A stretch of DNA of 64,000 bases from Flavobacterium inviolabile (GTDB lineage Bacteria > Bacteroidota > Bacteroidia > Flavobacteriales > Flavobacteriaceae), in contig NZ_CP058278.1 of assembly GCF_013389455.1 (NCBI RefSeq), positions 1,550,001-1,614,000 on the forward strand. Reading direction: 5' to 3'. This document shows, piece after piece, positions 1,165-11,072 of this stretch. The position numbers and the translations under genes are program-made. The notes under the pieces are model-generated. The model was not told where the DNA came from and searched no databases. It was given only the letters and a program-made list of their open reading frames with translations. Positions within the stretch are counted from its first letter, which is position 1. The number at the start of each line of letters is the position of its first letter.

Positions 1165-1197
1165 AAAAACCATCACAAAAATACTGTGATGGTTTTT
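1165..1197 (-). terminator. Terminator hairpin after susD copy 1 (copy 1 of a repeated element)
   Basis: A 13-bp stem (1165-1177 with 1185-1197) built on ACCATCACA/TGTGATGGT with a 7-base loop, ending in a T run on the minus strand. It ends the first SusCD unit. The surrounding 56 bases (1161-1216) recur with a single mismatch at 6296-6351, downstream of the second susD gene. Confidence 0.8.
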
Positions 1198-1223: not shown

Positions 1224-2780
1224 TTAATTTGTATCCCAGATTAACTTCGTGTCTAATTTGTCTCCTCCGATGTTTTGGGAAGCTTCAAGGTATTTAGCCG
1301 GGTTGAGATCTTTCTGGTTTACCGGATAGGTGAGCCTTGAAGGCATTTCTGTTAATTGTTTCAGAGGTGTGAAGATATAGGTGTAAGATCCGTTGATAGG
1401 ATTGATGAGCGTACCGGTTCCGCCCGGCTGGATCAGGATGTTCGGGAAACCGGTTCTTCGCCATTCTGCCCAGGTTTCATAAGGTTGCATAAACAGGGCG
1501 ATATATTTTTGTGTCAGTACCGTTTCCTGGGTTGCTGCCGGAAGTGCTGCAATATAGGCATCGATGGCTGGTTGCGTAACATTCCATTTTGCCATCGAGG
1601 CCCGAATGCCTTTTTCGTAGTGGCTCTGGCTCCAGCCGTTCACTTCGGATAGCAGGAATTCAACTTCGGCATATTCCATTAGGTACTCGGTATAATCCGG
1701 TCTGAAAATGCTGTAACTGTAATGACAGACACCGCTGACCTGGCTGTTTGTCTGGCCGGAAGTGATTCCGTATGGCATTCCCTGGTATTTGCTCAGGTCG
1801 CTGGTTTCCGTATAATTATTGTTTAACGAATTGATTTTTGAAGTACCTCTCGGTGCCAGTATTTTTTGTAATCTCGGGTCGGTGCTAAAAGGGCCGATCT
1901 GTCCCTTTAAAAGATCGGTAAAGGTTTTCGAAACAGTATAATCGGTTCTGTTGTCTACAAAAAAGGCACGGTAGGTGGGTGCCGGGTTTACAGAATTGGC
2001 TTCGAACCGGACACCTATATTATCATTGGCAGAGAGCATTACTCCGGAAGCAATGGCTTCCTGAATATGGGCATTTGCCGATGGGATAACGTTTTTTACC
2101 CGGTTGGCGATTCGTAAGCGCAGGGAATTTCCAAAGCGTTTCAGCTTTACAGCGGTGCCAAAAAAGTTATCCTGGTTGTTGTAAAAAACATTGTCGGTAA
2201 GGTCAATCATCGCTACAGCCTCCTTTAGTTCTTTTAGCAAATCGGTATAGATTTTTTGCTGTGAGGCAAATTTCGGTGTGAGGTTATTAATGTCCAAAGC
2301 CTGGAAATCGGGATCGTCACTCCCAAAAGAATAATAGGGAATGTCGCCGTAAGTATCCACGAGATTGTGAAAGATATACGCGAGCATGATCCGGGCGGCA
2401 GCTATCTGATTGTTAGTATTGCCATAAACAGACATTCCGGAAGCCGTAGCGGGATCGGTATTGAGTTCAAGAACCGATTTGAAATTTTTCGCCTGTAAAT
2501 AGTAGCTGTTAAACAAAGAGGTGTTGGTGGTTTCCCTGAATTGAAAACGGTCTTCCTCGGTATAATTCCGCTGCGCAGAATATTGTACCCAGGGTAAGGT
2601 CATCCGGGCAGAACCAAACGATCCTCTCATGTTGACATCAACAATATTCCGGGTAGCGCTGTTAAACAAACCGGGAGTAGTAACATTCGTGGGATTGTTC
2701 GGGTTGGTGTTAATCTCGTCAAATCGGTCTGTACAACCGGTAAAGATGAGAAGTGTGAGTAATAGTATTAATTTATTCAT
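1224..2780 (-). CDS. SusD/RagB family outer-membrane lipoprotein, copy 1
   Basis: This 518-residue protein is the surface lipoprotein that closes over a SusC-type TonB receptor and helps capture glycans or peptides. The N-terminus is a signal peptide ending in LLIFTGC, with Cys as the lipidation site. SusD-type features follow: an early DRFDEINTNPNNPT segment, tetratricopeptide-like helices (AARIMLAYIFHNLVDTYGD), and the usual C-terminal region RLTYPVNQKDLNP...GGDKLDTKLIWD. It lies 19 bp downstream of the frameshifted susC and should be co-transcribed with it, so a change in that tract could also alter its expression. The ligand is unknown; no glycoside hydrolase is adjacent. Confidence 0.93.
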   Translation of the reverse strand: MNKLILLLTLLIFTGCTDRFDEINTNPNNPTNVTTPGLFNSATRNIVDVNMRGSFGSARMTLPWVQYSAQRNYTEEDRFQFRETTNTSLFNSYYLQAKNFKSVLELNTDPATASGMSVYGNTNNQIAAARIMLAYIFHNLVDTYGDIPYYSFGSDDPDFQALDINNLTPKFASQQKIYTDLLKELKEAVAMIDLTDNVFYNNQDNFFGTAVKLKRFGNSLRLRIANRVKNVIPSANAHIQEAIASGVMLSANDNIGVRFEANSVNPAPTYRAFFVDNRTDYTVSKTFTDLLKGQIGPFSTDPRLQKILAPRGTSKINSLNNNYTETSDLSKYQGMPYGITSGQTNSQVSGVCHYSYSIFRPDYTEYLMEYAEVEFLLSEVNGWSQSHYEKGIRASMAKWNVTQPAIDAYIAALPAATQETVLTQKYIALFMQPYETWAEWRRTGFPNILIQPGGTGTLINPINGSYTYIFTPLKQLTEMPSRLTYPVNQKDLNPAKYLEASQNIGGDKLDTKLIWDTN

Positions 2781-2799: not shown

Positions 2800-5700
2800 T
2801 TAGATCTTAATTTCTATGTTCATACCGTAGGTTCTGGTTGAGGGTAATGAACCTCCTTCGATACCCTGAATGTTACCGCTTCCGTAACTGGTATTTTCAG
2901 GATCCATTCCTCTCCAGGCTAGGTTCCAGGCAAACAGGTTTCTTGCAAAAGCTGCAAAAGTGACACTGTTTATTTTCTTTCCAAGGAATTTTTTAGGCAG
3001 GCTGTACCCCAGAGTGGCTTCTCTTAATTTGATATAACCGGCATCGAAAACGTTTTGGGCATCTACACCATTATAGTGTGCTCTTGCCCAGTTATACCCG
3101 GAAAGTACGGTGGTGTTCGGAGAACCGTCTGCCTTGACACCTTCCAGTACAATTCCGTTTTCGCGAATCCCGTTCGCAGCCGTGGCTTCTAAAAGCCCGG
3201 AATAGGAACCCCACATGTGTGAGGTGGAAAAATAGCTTCCTCCTTTTTGAATATCAATTAAAAATCCGAGGTTGATGCCTTTGTATTGGAAAGCATTTCG
3301 GATTCCCATATTGTAATCCGGAATTATGGAACCTAATGCTTTTCGTTCGCCAACTTTATAGGTTCCGTTTGCGTTGATTATTTTGTTGCCATTCTCATCA
3401 TAGGCATAATCGTTGCCGTATATCTGTCCGTATTTTTCACCAACCACCGCTAATAATGAAACACTGAAAGGTGCATTTACCAGCGTTAAGGATTGGGTGT
3501 CTTCATATAAGGAAAGCAGTTTGTTGTTGTTTTTTGAAAAGTTCCAGGTAATGTCCCAGCTAAAGTCGTTTGTTTTTATGGGTGTTAGGTATACTGATGC
3601 TTCAATACCGCGGTTGCGCAGTTTACCGGCATTTATATATTTTGATGTAAACCCGGTGGAAGAAGTAATCTGTAAAGGGGTAATCAGGTCCTTGGTAATA
3701 TCTTCATAAAGCGAAATGTCGAATCCGATCCGGTTGTTCAGCAATTTCATTTCCAATCCTATTTCTTTGCTGGTTTTTATTTCCGGAACTAAATCGGGAT
3801 TGTTTGCTGTTGACTGATTGGAATAGGATGGGATGTCCTGAAACGGCGTGCCGATGTTGTAATAATTGGCAATTACATAAGGCGAAGCACCATTACTCAC
3901 CCGTGCCCAGCCGCTTCGGATCTTTCCATAGGATAGCCAGGAGGTGTCTTTTAGCAGTTCGGAGAAAATAAAGCTTCCGGTTACAGAAGGGTAGTTGGCT
4001 GCTTTTTTAACGGTTGAAAACCAGTCTTTCCTGTTGGTCGCTTCAAGAAACAGCATGTCTGCATATCCTAAGGATACCATGCCATACAGGCTGTTTACCC
4101 TTTCCTGTGAATCATAATTGGAAGAACGGGAAAGGTTTCTGGAATTGGAAAGACTGTACAGGTTCGGGATAATCAATCCTCCGGAAGTAGTTCCGGATAA
4201 AGAGCTATAGCTTGAATGTCTCCGGTTTACCCCGGCAAAAGTGTTAAGGCTTAATTTGTCCCAGCGTTTGTCAAGATGAAGGCGTCCTTCATAATTCATT
4301 TCGGAGACATTTCGCACTACTTGTGAATAGCCTGACTGTGCCTGTGAGTAAACGGCAACCCGTTCTCTGGTGGTAAGGTTGTACAGGTCGCCGTAAACAT
4401 TTCCAACCACATAAAGGTTTGTTTGTTTGTTTGTTTGTTTGTTTGTTTGTTTGTTTGTTTGTTTGTTTGTGTGAAATTGTATTTCAGTTTGATGTTCCCG
4501 ATGTAACGGTTTCGCCGGTCTTCGGAAGTGTTTTCATAAACAGACCAGTAAGGATTGTCGCTATATAGCGGTGTCGCATCGTCCCACGATGCCCTGTTCC
4601 AGGAACGCTGCATTCCGTTAGCGAGTTTGTAGTCTTTTAAAGCATCATAATCCAGTTGTCGTTGTGTCCACTGGAAAAATTTCTGGGCTACAGAGTTGTC
4701 GCCATATCCCTGCTCGGGTCGGTTAAAGCCTTTTGTTCCGGTATAGGTTAGCATACCGTCAAAGCGCAGCTGTTTGTTTAACTCTGCCCCGCCATTTATA
4801 GAAAATGTATTTTTAGACAGTTTGGAATTGGGAACAATCCCTTCGGTAGTCTGGTTGCTGAAAGAAGTCCGGATGTTGTTTTTTTCGGTGGCATGACTCA
4901 TCGCGATATTGGTTGTGGAGGTATAACCGGTATTGAAAAACGATTTGACCCCTTTTCTGGGGGCGACCCACGGTTTTGTGACCATATAATCGTTGGAAAA
5001 CTCCGGATCGAATGCATTCCAGGGAAGATACATCAGGTTCGGATCATATCTTGGTCCCCAGCTTTCATCGGCACTATAATCCGCTAAGTTATAAAGCTGA
5101 CCGTTAATGTTAGCAGTAGGTAAGGTGGTCGAAGAGCCGCCGCCGTATTCGTTTTGCAGTACCGGCATTATATTAATGCTTTCCATTGTTAATCCTGTTT
5201 TTAATGATACTTCCGACCGGCCTTTTTTTCCGGATTTTGTGGTGTACATGATCACCCCGTTAGCCGCTCTCGATCCGTATAAAGCAGCGGCAGGACCTCC
5301 TTTCAGGACGGAAACGGATTCGATGTCGTCCGGATTGATATCGGCAGAAGCATCACCGTAATCCCTTCCGCCGGCACCTCTCTGGGTTGCTGTGCTGTTG
5401 TAGTTTGAATTGTCCATCGGAATACCGTCAATAACAATGAGCGGGCGGTTGTTCTGGGTTACAGAGCCGATACCTCTGATAAGGATTCGTGCCGAGCCGC
5501 CCATAGAAGAAGGTGCCGTTACCTGAACTCCGGCAATATTTCCCGATAGCGCACTGAGGGCATTGGTTTGTCCGGCCTGATTGATGACGTCACCTTTTAC
5601 TTCCTGAGCCGAATAGCCAATGGCCTTCTTTTCCCTTTTTATGCCTAATGCCGTTACTATAATGTCCTGAAGTTCCGTAGTGTTTTCTTCCAGTGTGATG

Positions 5701-5972
5701 TTCAGGGTAGTGGAAGCCGCCCTGACTTCCTGCGTTTTCATTCCGATAAACGTAATGACTAATGTTGCGGCCGGACTTACCCGGATAGAAAAATTCCCGT
5801 TAATGTCGGTTTGTGTACCGTTAGTTGTTCCTTTTTCCATAACACCGGCTCTTGGAATCGGAAAATTATTCAGATCGGTAATCTTACCGCTAACCAGTCG
5901 TTCCTGTGCAAAAAGATTTTGGAGGACTAATACAAAGATTAGTGTGACATAAAATTTAAACTGTGTTTTCAT
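2800..5972 (-). pseudogene. SusC/RagA TonB-dependent receptor, split by a (GTTT)13 tract; probably phase-variable, currently out of frame
   Basis: The 5' part (5972-4317, 551 codons) has a signal peptide ending LFAQ, a carboxypeptidase-like domain (about 25-105), and a SusC plug with RGIGSVTQNNRPLIVIDGIP. The 3' part (open from before 4410 to 2800) holds the rest of the barrel and a SusC-type C-terminus. The frames meet in a 52-base (GTTT)13 tract at 4417-4468, read on the minus strand as repeated Thr-Asn-Lys-Gln from about residue 501. With 13 units translation shifts and stops at 4317 after about 30 unrelated residues. Fourteen or eleven units would give one frame of 1058 or 1054 residues, close to the intact paralogue (1076). 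The tract falls where the paralogue has a short turn between two barrel strands. A true mutation or assembly error remains possible. Confidence 0.85.
4417..4468. repeat. Tetranucleotide simple repeat (GTTT)13 inside susC
   Basis: Thirteen perfect GTTT units (AAAC on the coding strand), followed by a partial GT. Four-base units are not a multiple of three, so each unit gained or lost changes the reading frame; one of every three repeat numbers restores the full SusC frame. Long perfect tetranucleotide tracts in coding regions are the classic substrate for slipped-strand phase variation. Confidence 0.97.
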
Positions 5973-6299: not shown

Positions 6300-6332
6300 A
6301 AAAACCATCACAAAAATGCTGTGATGGTTTTT
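6300..6332 (-). terminator. Terminator hairpin after susD copy 2 (copy 2 of the repeated element)
   Basis: Same 13-bp stem as at 1165-1197 (6300-6312 with 6320-6332). The loop carries G where copy 1 has A. The identity extends to the flanks, 6296-6351. Confidence 0.8.
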
Positions 6333-6359: not shown

Positions 6360-7838
6360 TTAATTTACGTCCCAGAAAACTTTTGTGGTAAGCTTGTCGC
6401 CGCCAATTGCAGCACTTGCCGCCTGGTAGCTGTTACCGTTAACGGTTTGTTCGTTAACAGGGTACGTTAGCCTAACCGGTATTTTGCCTTCTGCAACAGG
6501 GAATGCACTGGGAGGAGCAGTAAGCCCGGGTGCATCTAATCTTCTGAAGGAGTTCCAGGATTCAAAGCCTCTGTTGTACAGTGCTATCCATGCCTGTTTT
6601 CCTATTTTTTCTTTCCAGGTTCCGGCTGCCGTAGCATAGGCTACCGTACTTTGTCCAAGATAGGTCGAGATATCGCCGGTTGGGATGTTCCAGTAATTTA
6701 ATGATGCGGTAATGGCCGCACTATAGTAAGTATCTGGTGTACCACCCACGTTATAACCTCTGGCTGCTGCTTCTGCTAGGTAGAAATTAACTTCTGCCGC
6801 ATCGAATAGCACTCCTTTGGCATCTGCCTTTTTGATTTCGTCCCCTATGTGGGAATAAGACGTTTCATAAGGTTGTGTATTGGTATATCCGTATGCACCG
6901 CCCACATAGCTTCCGTCTGCCATTGGGGTGAAAAATACAGGTCTTCTGGGATCGTTTAGGGTGTTCAGCTCATCAACAAACACAGATGTGGGAACAAAGT
7001 CATTTCTGTTGCTGGCAACCAATTCTCCGAAAATCTGGTTGTAGTTTGGCGAAAAGGAATTGAACTGTACCAGAGCGTTGTCGCTATTTGCTGTGATCAC
7101 ACCGGCTGTATAAGCACTTTCAATGGTGGACTGAGCCAGGGAGTTGTTTACATCCGAAATGTTGATCGCCAGTTTTACTTTCAGGGAATTGGCAAACAGT
7201 TTCCATTTGGCAATATTACCGTTGTATAGTAAATCGCCTTTGCTGAAAGAAGCAAAGTTGGTATCCAATTGTGCTGTGGCGGCATTCAGCCTGCTAAGCA
7301 AATCAAGATAGATTGCCTGGTCGTCGTCATATTTCGGTAAAACAATGTTAACCGGCTGTAAGGCTTCCGTGTAGGGAACATCTCCAAAGGAGTCTACCAG
7401 TATCTGGTAAGTGTACACATTTAAGATTTCGATAATAGCCGATTTGTTGATCTGTATTTTATCCCATGTGGCCTGATCGATGTTTTCCGGTTTTGCTTCG
7501 GCATCAACTACTTCCTTGGCTGTTTTTAAGTTTCCTAAAACACGGGTATATAAAACTCTCCAGTGGTTGTCCGGAATTCTTCTGCTGGTAAGATTGTATC
7601 GGGATTCGGCTCTGTATAGGGTTGCCGCCCAATATTGCGAAAAATAGCGGAATACGTTCAGGTTAACACTTGGTGTTGTCATCTGGTCGGTTAATTCTTT
7701 TTGCGAGTTCGATAATAACGCTTCGGCACTGGCGGTATAAGTCTTGCTGGTGTCGTCGTTAAAGTCGATATCATCATTAACACATCCTGTAAAGAATAAT
7801 GATGCGATTGCTAGTATCGGGATTAATAACTTTTTCAT
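6360..7838 (-). CDS. SusD/RagB family outer-membrane lipoprotein, copy 2
   Basis: A 492-residue lipoprotein with a signal peptide ending SLFFTGC (lipidated Cys), followed by an acidic Asn/Asp-rich linker. SusD-like helical segments include VYTQILVDSFGDVPYTEAL, the equivalent of the DTYGDIPY segment in copy 1. The C-terminus RLTYPVNEQTVN...GGDKLTTKVFWDVN closely matches copy 1, so the two are paralogues. Its stop-to-start spacing from susC copy 2 is only 3 bp, a tight operon in which SusC is translated first. It should form the lid of the SusC2 transporter. No neighbouring enzyme reveals the substrate. Confidence 0.93.
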   Translation of the reverse strand: MKKLLIPILAIASLFFTGCVNDDIDFNDDTSKTYTASAEALLSNSQKELTDQMTTPSVNLNVFRYFSQYWAATLYRAESRYNLTSRRIPDNHWRVLYTRVLGNLKTAKEVVDAEAKPENIDQATWDKIQINKSAIIEILNVYTYQILVDSFGDVPYTEALQPVNIVLPKYDDDQAIYLDLLSRLNAATAQLDTNFASFSKGDLLYNGNIAKWKLFANSLKVKLAINISDVNNSLAQSTIESAYTAGVITANSDNALVQFNSFSPNYNQIFGELVASNRNDFVPTSVFVDELNTLNDPRRPVFFTPMADGSYVGGAYGYTNTQPYETSYSHIGDEIKKADAKGVLFDAAEVNFYLAEAAARGYNVGGTPDTYYSAAITASLNYWNIPTGDISTYLGQSTVAYATAAGTWKEKIGKQAWIALYNRGFESWNSFRRLDAPGLTAPPSAFPVAEGKIPVRLTYPVNEQTVNGNSYQAASAAIGGDKLTTKVFWDVN

Positions 7839-7841
7839 CTT

Positions 7842-10800
7842 TTAGAAGTTTAATTTTACATTAAATGAATATACTTTAACCGAAGGCATTACACCAGACT
7901 GGTATCCTTGTATGTTTCCACCGGATGATCCGGCTTCCGGGTCTGAATATGGAGTGTTTTTATGAATGATCCATAAGTTGTTGCCCAGCAGGCTGAAAGA
8001 AGCTCCTTTGATAAAAGAACGACCCAGTAATTTTGCAGGCATGGTATAGGTTAAACCAACTTCTCTTAATTTTACAAAAGACGCATCATAAACATAGGCT
8101 TTTTCAGGAGTGGAATCTGCTCCGAAAACATTGGCAGATGCTGTTGCGTCTACACGGATGTCATTTGGCGTTCCGTCTTCTTTTACACCCGGAAGGATGA
8201 TACCACCACCCTGGCTTAACGGGCTTCTGACAGGGTTTCCTAAATCGTTCAGCCCTGCTGTTTCCGGATATAAACCGGTTTCCTGTCCGTATGCCTGGTC
8301 AAGTGAGAAGATGCTACCGCCTTCTCTAACATTAATCAGGAAGCTTAATGATAAATCTTTATAGGTTACTTTGTTGTACACACCGCCAATCCAGTCCGGT
8401 TGGATGTTACCCAATACCTGGTCCTGTTTTTGAAGGTATAATCCATCGTCGCCAACTACCGGATTTCCGCTGCCATCATATACATAGTCTGTACCTCTGA
8501 TGGTTCCGTATGGTTCGCCTACCGTTGCGTTCAGGGAAGTACGCTGGAAAGTAGTCAGTAACAGGTTGGTTCTTCCGGCATCTAGCGATAACAGTTTGTT
8601 GACGTTTTTAGACCAGTTCACATTGATCTGCCATGAGAAGTCGTTTGTTTTGATAGGGGTAGCCGTTAAAGCAACCTCGATACCTTTGTTTTCAAGTTCC
8701 CCGGCGTTGATCTGTTTGGAGATATATTGTGTTGCCGGCGATTGCGGAACAAAGAAAATCTGGTCTTTGGTATTGGTTTTGTATACCGAAGCATCCAGGC
8801 TCAATCGGTTTTTGAATATGGAAGCTTCCAGACCTAATTCCCATGAATGGGTGATTTCCGGTCTTAGTTTTTCAAATTCAATCAGCTGGTCGCTGTTTCC
8901 GAAAATCGGGTTGTTGTTAACGGAACCGTTGTTTTGTTTGGCACCAAGTCTTCCGTATAACGGGTCGTTACCCACTCTTGCATAGTTCAATCTTAGTTTT
9001 GCAAACGAAAGCCAGTCTGCTTTTATCATTTCTGATAGGATGATACTGGTTCCGGCTGAATAGTAGTCATAACCACGGCTTGATTTTGGTAACGCGGTTG
9101 ATTCGTCATGACGGAATGAACCTTCCAGGTAAACCATTTTTTTGAAGTCGATATTGGCTTGTCCGTAAACACCGGCTTTTTCATATTTAATGGTCGATTC
9201 CACCGGCGGAATGAATACGCTCGAATTGGAAAGGCTGTAAATACCCGGAATTAATAATCCACCGGCAGTTGCTCCTTCAAAAGAGTAGGAGTCGGCCCGG
9301 ATAAAGTTAAAACCACCGATTATTTTTGCAGACAGGTCCGAAGACAGGCTTAAATCGTAGGTACCAATGATGTCGTAGTTTTGTTGCAGGAAGTCCCGGG
9401 TGAACATTACATATCCTGATGATTCTGTTGCCTGGTTTGTAACCTGCGAAATTCCAAATTCTTCGGCGTGGCTGCCTATTGCTTTTCTTAATTCCTGTTT
9501 GTCATAAGAATAGTCAATACCCACACGGCCTAACAGGTTGAAGTTTTTGGTGACATCAAAACTGATACTGGCTCCGGTTAACAAACGTTTTCTGTTATCG
9601 GTCGTATAGTTTTCATATCTTTCAAAGTAGGGGTTGTTCCAGAAGTTAGGTCTTAAGTCGCCGTTTGTCGGGTCGATCATGTTCCAGGTTACGTTACGTC
9701 CGGTTCTGAAATATTCGGAACGCAATTCCTGTACGTCTACGTTAACAGGCCACCATTGTCTGAAACCGGTTAAGAGGTTGTCACCATATCCAACGCTGTT
9801 TCTACCGGTTACACTCTGATGGGAGAATGTCATAAAAGAGTTTATCTTGATTTTGTCATTCAGATCTCTGGAGTAGTTACCGCTAATAGCGTTTTTAATT
9901 AATTTACTGTTTGGCATAATCCCGGTTTCGGAATTATTGGTATAGCTCAGGTTAAAAGCACTGTTGCTGTCGCCGCCATTCAGGGAAACGTTGTTCACGT
10001 AGGAGGTTGAATTCTGGAAGAAAGTGCCCGGATCGTTCTGTGCCGCTACCCATGGGGTTGCCTGTCCGTAGTGTGGATTACCGGGTACGAATGCATTCCA
10101 GTTATACACCATTAAGGAAGGATTGAAGGCATTACCATAGGAGGCATCATCACCGGTTGAGGCGACTAAATCAGGAATCCCGTCTCCGTCTACATCAGCC
10201 GAATAGATACTGTCTTCTCCGGCATATCCCTGTCCGTATTCTTTCTGGTATTTCGGAAATGTGGATTTGTCATAATACCCTACCGATACTGTTGAGCTGA
10301 CAGCGATACCAATATCGGAATTTTTTCTTCCTTTTTTAGTGGTAATCATGATGGCTCCCTGTTGGGCTAAACTTCCGTATAGCGCTGTAGCAGCAGCTCC
10401 TTTCAATACGTTTATCGACTCGATATTGTTCGGGTCAATATCGGCTGCAGCATTACCAAAGTCATAACCGTCTCTTCCGTTTACGGCATCTTTAGTGTTC
10501 AGGTTGGCATTACTGATCGGAATACCGTCTACGACTATTAATGCCTGGTTGTTACCGGTTATGGATTTCGATCCACGCAGTACAATGTTTGTGGATCCTC
10601 CAAAGTTGGAGTTGGTTTTTACATCCAGTCCGGCTACTTTACCGGCAAGATTGTTTACGAAATTTGTGGTTGGTGAGGAGTTTATCTGGCTTCCTTCTAC
10701 TTTTTGAGAGGAATATCCTAAAGATTTTTTATCCCGGGTAATCCCTAAAGCGGTTACTACCACACCTTCTAATACTTTTGCTTCTTCATCTAATTTTACA

Positions 10801-11072
10801 TTCATAACTGTAGATGCTGCCCTGATTTCTTGGGTCTTCATCCCAATAAATGAATAAACCAAAACTGCTGTAGGGCTTACTTTTATTTTATAGTTGCCAT
10901 CAAAATCAGTTTGTGTTCCATTTGTGGTGCCTTTTACAATGACACTAACACCAGGTAGCGGTAAGCCACTTACATCTGTTACTTTACCGGAAACTGTTCT
11001 TTCTTGGGCAAAGAGATTTTGCACAAGTAACACCAATACAAGTGTTAAAAAAGCTTTGAATTTTGCTCTCAT
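7842..11072 (-). CDS. SusC/RagA TonB-linked outer-membrane receptor, copy 2
   Basis: An intact 1076-residue receptor that imports a ligand captured by its SusD partner, powered by TonB. In order: signal peptide (1-22, ending LFAQ), carboxypeptidase-regulatory-like domain (about 24-100), a TonB-box-like VLEGVVVTALG stretch, plug (about 110-250) with the SusC signature SITGNNQALIVVDGIP, then a 22-strand-type barrel ending in a hydrophobic strand with terminal Phe. An Asp-rich DVDGDGIPDL loop at 293-302 resembles a calcium-binding DxDGDG motif and has no counterpart in copy 1. The N-terminal 110 residues are very similar to copy 1, suggesting tandem duplication. Confidence 0.95.
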   Translation of the reverse strand: MRAKFKAFLTLVLVLLVQNLFAQERTVSGKVTDVSGLPLPGVSVIVKGTTNGTQTDFDGNYKIKVSPTAVLVYSFIGMKTQEIRAASTVMNVKLDEEAKVLEGVVVTALGITRDKKSLGYSSQKVEGSQINSSPTTNFVNNLAGKVAGLDVKTNSNFGGSTNIVLRGSKSITGNNQALIVVDGIPISNANLNTKDAVNGRDGYDFGNAAADIDPNNIESINVLKGAAATALYGSLAQQGAIMITTKKGRKNSDIGIAVSSTVSVGYYDKSTFPKYQKEYGQGYAGEDSIYSADVDGDGIPDLVASTGDDASYGNAFNPSLMVYNWNAFVPGNPHYGQATPWVAAQNDPGTFFQNSTSYVNNVSLNGGDSNSAFNLSYTNNSETGIMPNSKLIKNAISGNYSRDLNDKIKINSFMTFSHQSVTGRNSVGYGDNLLTGFRQWWPVNVDVQELRSEYFRTGRNVTWNMIDPTNGDLRPNFWNNPYFERYENYTTDNRKRLLTGASISFDVTKNFNLLGRVGIDYSYDKQELRKAIGSHAEEFGISQVTNQATESSGYVMFTRDFLQQNYDIIGTYDLSLSSDLSAKIIGGFNFIRADSYSFEGATAGGLLIPGIYSLSNSSVFIPPVESTIKYEKAGVYGQANIDFKKMVYLEGSFRHDESTALPKSSRGYDYYSAGTSIILSEMIKADWLSFAKLRLNYARVGNDPLYGRLGAKQNNGSVNNNPIFGNSDQLIEFEKLRPEITHSWELGLEASIFKNRLSLDASVYKTNTKDQIFFVPQSPATQYISKQINAGELENKGIEVALTATPIKTNDFSWQINVNWSKNVNKLLSLDAGRTNLLLTTFQRTSLNATVGEPYGTIRGTDYVYDGSGNPVVGDDGLYLQKQDQVLGNIQPDWIGGVYNKVTYKDLSLSFLINVREGGSIFSLDQAYGQETGLYPETAGLNDLGNPVRSPLSQGGGIILPGVKEDGTPNDIRVDATASANVFGADSTPEKAYVYDASFVKLREVGLTYTMPAKLLGRSFIKGASFSLLGNNLWIIHKNTPYSDPEAGSSGGNIQGYQSGVMPSVKVYSFNVKLNF

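Follow-up and report, generated by a model that had tools for sequence, protein, structure and literature searches.

A tetranucleotide tract within a susC receptor gene of Flavobacterium inviolabile as a candidate slipped-strand switch

Introduction

Bacteroidota import nutrients mainly through SusC/SusD pairs, and within this phylum Flavobacterium is a genus with many free-living members. In the genome of Flavobacterium inviolabile, one susC gene is divided into two reading frames by a perfect run of the tetranucleotide GTTT, which raises the question of whether the gene is broken or is the silent state of a receptor switched by slipped-strand copying, as a preliminary description made from the sequence had proposed. 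We addressed this question in the window, the whole stretch of 64,000 nucleotides analysed here (C1:1550001-1614000), from an assembly that consists of one contig of 3,913,347 bases (C1) and is 99.95% complete.

Results and discussion

A perfect tetranucleotide tract divides susC

The features at the interruption are as follows, with coordinates counted from the first base of the window.

4417..4468, no strand assigned: (GTTT)13 tract, (AAAC)13 on the coding strand; the period-4 run reaches 4470
4317..5972, minus strand: 5' part of susC, 551 aa including an out-of-frame tail, with a CarboxypepD-like domain, the plug and the first barrel strands
4317..4319, minus strand: premature stop in the 13-unit frame, 32 codons past the tract
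2800..4416, minus strand: 3' part of susC, the remaining barrel, with 538 codons after the tract, intact and out of frame

Tandem Repeats Finder reported GTTT at 4417-4470 with 13.5 copies and 100% matches, and 13 whole units were counted at 4417..4468, exactly as first described. The tract is preceded by 1504 bases of the susC gene, and the open reading frames on its two sides, 5972..4317 (-) and 4410..2800 (-), lie in different frames. Positions 3-436 of the 981-position profile TIGR04056 are covered by the 5' part and positions 456-980 by the 3' part, with scores of 325.9 and 250.2 bits that, as those of partial sequences, each fall below the cut-off of 368.25. Profile coverage, frame reading and alignment to a whole allele (P0001, below) revealed no further frameshift or stop in susC beyond the tract, so that the repeat stands as the cause of the frameshift and both halves are otherwise intact.

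Frame translation at different unit counts kept the frame at 5, 8, 11, 14 and 17 units, with 538 codons to the natural end of susC, and placed the stop 32 codons after the tract at 13 units and 41 codons after it at 12 units. The arithmetic of the preliminary description, OFF at 13 units and ON at 11 or 14, was borne out by this translation, but its reading of Thr-Asn-Lys-Gln for every four units was wrong: one copy of the tetrapeptide takes three units, or 12 bases. As far as this assembly goes, neither the tract nor the frameshift nor the unit rule is in doubt.

Both strands of the 3.91 Mb chromosome were searched for (GTTT)4 or longer, and the susC tract was the single site; a GTTT system spread over several loci is thus not in evidence on the organism's own chromosome, where no second tract reaches four units. 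An order-1 Markov model predicts approximately 0.02 runs at a length of 4 units and 1.5e-21 at 13 units. A scan for periods 1-12, covering 464 kb of the 3.91 Mb (the window and 20 further stretches, each of 20 kb), turned up no other period-4 run longer than 3.75 units. The repeat thus has the sequence make-up of a simple-repeat contingency locus, being pure, intragenic, built of a unit that is not a multiple of 3 and far longer than chance allows. Its mid-gene position departs from the start-codon placement of the Haemophilus-type layout; the tract would act like a Haemophilus-type tetranucleotide locus, though its layout differs.

A near-identical whole allele

A protein search was run with both susC parts joined by X as the query and a length window admitting whole alleles only; 7976 proteins were returned from 8000 scored candidates, and the best 120 were examined. 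The best match among these 120, P0001 (from ENA; a cluster of 18 member sequences and 1 contig), is a whole protein of 1046 aa. Of its 501 residues before the tract, 2 are not those of the window, and of the 538 after it, 4; identity to both halves is 99%. P0001 scored 573.3 bits against TIGR04056 (cut-off 368.25) and 54.8 against the TIGR04057 signature (cut-off 46.2), and by these family scores of the whole allele the susC product is a SusC/RagA TonB-linked receptor.

At the tract site P0001 reads NFT-QTNKQTN-LYVV, and because ACAC(AAAC)5CTT encodes exactly these residues in frame, the allele most simply carries about five units, a count that is deduced from the residues on the assumption of identical codons and that, like 11 and 14, leaves a remainder of 2 modulo 3. 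It is possible that a short-read assembler collapsed a longer tract in P0001. The source of P0001 would be a different strain, or else a very closely related species, with the gene ON, and a difference in allele length between strains is likely on this sequence evidence. At the protein level, a second allele thus exists that is whole and whose insert, though shorter, belongs to the in-frame class that the unit rule predicts. No truncated allele of this species was present among the 120 listed matches to the 5' part, in a protein search admitting approximately 303-964 aa, where the best match was 74% identical.

The insert lies at a predicted periplasmic turn

By alignment, the turn at the tract site comprises 2 residues in 119 of the 120 listed relatives and 7 residues in P0001. 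In an AlphaFold2 model of P0001 (43 sequences, mean pLDDT 75.6, pTM 0.72, with only 66 for the block 501-510), residues 504-505 form the turn between the strands 482-503 and 506-528, and the insert comprises residues 502-508. This modelled turn lies on the opposite side from the long 417-481 loop, and the tight connections of the model (362-364, 398-401, 504-505, 561-562 and 627-629) alternate with longer ones (378-383, 417-481, 529-536 and 587-604). In the usual topology of such barrels the tight connections face the periplasm, and the insert is predicted to sit on a tight, periplasmic-type barrel turn. Alignment and model both agree with the original placement of the tract at a short turn between two barrel strands, and such a turn could accommodate additional hydrophilic residues.

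The closest solved structure by profile was the BT_2264 SusC (5fq6, 5fq7 and 5fq8; E 1.7e-169). Unlike in P0001 and the window, a comparable insert was not seen there at the aligned place. Peptides are substrates of BT2264 and RagA, and by analogy a peptide is a possible substrate of the present SusC.

A young tract in an old gene

The neighbourhood of the split gene contains the following features.

1224..2780, minus strand: susD (SusD-like_2), starting 19 bases after the susC stop
1165..1197, minus strand: terminator-like hairpin with a U run, 3' of susD (z -5.1)
6300..6332, minus strand: terminator-like hairpin 3' of susD2, upstream of the split susC (z -5.6)
6360..11072, minus strand: susC2 (7842-11072) and susD2 (6360-7838), a neighbouring paralogous pair that is intact and has no long GTTT tract

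Judged by comparison of related loci, the susC gene itself is old. In all 42 related loci (named records), the counterparts of both susC halves share a strand, with gap lengths divisible by 3; susD adjoins susC in 41 of them, the contig ending at the remaining one (L069), and a SpoU-type methylase gene (rlmB-like) lies 3' of susD in 13, the same arrangement as in the window. Compared with P0002, the next relative, the two sides of the tract are almost equally conserved, at 76.4% identity before it and 75.7% after it, which indicates that the silent part has not diverged more.

The tract is young as far as the data go, since the listed relatives other than P0001 and the genus-mates are without the insert. 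The 12 best genus-mate matches, 56-65% identical in a protein search of 199 genomes, carry no repeat, and of the 120 listed proteins P0001 is the sole one to share the insert with the window, which counts against proving long-term selection. The tract could readily have been seeded by a short turn resembling Thr-Asn-Asn (ACA-AAC-AAC).

The split gene has its SusD partner directly beside it, at 1224-2780, and, because of the 19-base gap and the hairpins behind both susD genes, susC-susD looks like a transcription unit of its own. The hairpins at 1165-1197 and 6300-6332 (-) are near-identical, share the same flank and stand behind both susD genes, which hints at a shared history of the two susCD units.

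Relation to known phase-variable systems

The Hgp proteins of Haemophilus influenzae are TonB-dependent, the oafA product of the same species is an acyltransferase, and the HmbR and HpuAB receptors of Neisseria switch by poly-G tracts. According to the available part of one H. influenzae study (PMC2651432), the hgp (haemoglobin/haptoglobin-binding) genes carry CCAA tracts whose lengths differ between genomes, the units located in ORFs include CAAA, which is of the GTTT class, and for seven of the eight units the encoded peptides are hydrophilic and proposed to loop out. The tetranucleotide tracts of the four genomes treated there lie at or just behind the start codon with two exceptions, one of them the mid-gene GCAA tract of oafA.

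The likeness to hgp, on the same partial source (PMC2651432), is that a 4-base repeat lies within the ORF of a surface receptor and that length change shifts the frame; the differences are that hgp encodes a haem receptor and that the tracts of that study lie, with the two exceptions, near the start, whereas here a SusC/RagA gene of Bacteroidota is affected mid-gene, at a barrel turn. oafA likewise bears its tetranucleotide tract mid-gene, but its product, unlike SusC, is not a barrel. HmbR and HpuAB, described as phase-variable TonB-dependent receptors in the available part of PMC3352162, differ from the present SusC in serving haem uptake and in belonging to another phylum. SusC/SusD switching in Bacteroides fragilis occurs by DNA inversion (cited in the available parts of PMC12632263 and PMC11868660) and similarly turns a SusC/SusD pair on and off, but through an invertase rather than the simple-repeat slippage proposed here.

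Among the literature matches listed (titles and starts of abstracts, with most subscription journals outside the scope), none concerned slipped-strand SusC switching or simple-repeat phase variation in Flavobacterium; the one whole-word match for SusC with slipped-strand was the review PMC11868660, in the available part of which SusC occurs in one reference title. Tetranucleotide switching in Haemophilus and SusC inversion in Bacteroides are known separately, and what would be new is their combination, mid-gene and in Flavobacterium.

The proposed switch and its alternatives

These observations are best explained by a functional SusC under phase variation, with a probability that we put at approximately 70%. 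The slipped-strand switching originally claimed is thereby supported, though unproven, by the whole P0001 allele, by an intact and conserved gene beside susD and by the modelled turn. Under this proposal, the SusC/RagA outer-membrane receptor gene would bear a hypermutable tetranucleotide microsatellite at a periplasmic barrel turn, and slipped-strand copying would gain or lose 4-base units. Counts with a remainder of 2 on division by 3 would keep the frame and do no more than add hydrophilic Gln-Thr-Asn-Lys residues to the turn (ON), while other counts would end translation 32 or 41 codons past the tract (OFF); the sequenced clone, with 13 units, would be OFF and the source of P0001, with a deduced count of about 5, would be ON. 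Length change in living populations would be frequent and reversible, OFF cells would be without the receptor, and susD expression may drop along with that of susC through polarity. The benefit may lie in substrate choice, or in escape from a phage or another agent that uses the receptor.

The main rival, which we consider unlikely although it carries some weight, is a neutral microsatellite in a dispensable gene, in which a repeat-like Thr-Asn-Asn turn expanded, the frame was lost and decay is now under way, with lengths varying without gain. Such a history would suit both an insert confined to the window and P0001 among the 120 listed proteins and the presence of an intact paralogous susCD pair next door. 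It fits poorly with a susC free of any other frameshift or stop, with a P0001 that is whole and has the insert present yet in frame, and with a gene context kept as described above (susD next in 41/42 loci, the rlmB-like SpoU-type methylase gene in 13/42). Far less probable is an assembly or sequencing error, by which the true unit count would differ and the gene would be whole with a long turn: the genome is a single contig at 99.95% completeness, ordinary reads span a 52-base tract, as is generally known, and the tract would persist even with another unit count. Unit errors do occur, since, when a tetranucleotide tract that was synthetic and clonal was sequenced by circular consensus, 1.13% of reads had one unit less and 0.74% one more, but in the available part of that study (PMC6889271) these are only minor modes.

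We give least credence to the idea that the tract tunes the protein or is bypassed, one-unit slippage of ribosome or polymerase yielding some full-length SusC from the out-of-frame gene. By sequence logic a period-4 tract presents the same codon every 4 bases, as such a bypass would need, and we know of no slippage bypass for an AAAC/GTTT repeat. Tuning has a precedent in the two exceptional H. influenzae tracts, mid- or late-gene tetranucleotide repeats for which the authors suggest modulation of function and not ON/OFF switching (available part of PMC2651432); this precedent also weighs against reading the mid-gene susC tract as a switch.

If the phase-variable SusC is real, DNA inversion would not be the sole route to SusC phase variation, split SusC genes with microsatellites would be possible OFF states, and Flavobacterium may use contingency loci.

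GTTT/AAAC tracts in other genomes

Of 398 genus genomes, 21 contained GTTT runs of at least 5 units (start-anchored pattern), at 22 places in all; of 397 family genomes, 6 contained runs of at least 6 units. Both counts include the window's own tract. Classification of the 26 other tracts from genus and family, in loci of approximately 3 kb and with ATG starts only, left the window's tract as the sole one found deep within a long gene. In seven of the 26 (L042, L049, L057, L060, L062, L063 and L107), the tract is located at a start codon and precedes a long ORF that is out of frame in each case, and in 18, with L047 set aside, no long ORF from an ATG start was seen to read across the tract. 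A reading of all other genus tracts except that of L060 as intergenic was dropped for several, which on retest lay directly behind a start codon.

A search for ATGA(AAAC)4 returned 11 places in 8 of 398 genus genomes, with 4-16 units (L132-L142); five of these sites are the tracts of L042, L057, L060, L062 and L063. By eye, a lipoprotein-like signal comes next in all 11, of which 2 are in frame and 9 out, and the open codons behind the tract number at least 426 in all but L133, which has only 84. L139 and L140 form an orthologous pair, 87% identical behind the tract, with one in frame and one out. When 10 later parts were scanned, L136 and L049 matched the Tae4 amidase family above its cut-off, L132, L135 and L137 were SprT-like below the cut-off, and five gave no family match. 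From these features, L132-L142 look like phase-variable, surface-anchored interbacterial effectors. The genomes concerned are G332, G007, G129, G200, G393, G105, G208 and G294, with two genes each in G105, G200 and G294.

Division of surface-protein-like genes by the GTTT/AAAC unit in other Flavobacterium species, with the start-codon placement typical of Haemophilus, supports the reading of the SusC tract as a switch, without proving it. More tentatively, and with somewhat more doubt than belief, we suggest that AAAC/GTTT slippage may be a genus-level means of surface-protein switching, comprising start-codon tracts in lipoprotein effector-like genes and the mid-barrel SusC tract described here; a clone would then mix cells with and without a nutrient (possibly phage) receptor, and an in-frame tract would set the length of the periplasmic turn.

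Two further repeats were observed. A GTTT tract of 6, 6 and 8 units lies between the same two genes in L043, L046 and L052, a conserved intergenic microsatellite of varying length. The F. inviolabile genome itself also contains an intergenic heptanucleotide array, ATTCTTT/TCTTTAC, with at most approximately 6 copies (L129:11469-11532, C1 ~3,411,470), beside a gene whose start resembles a phage-tail collar protein.
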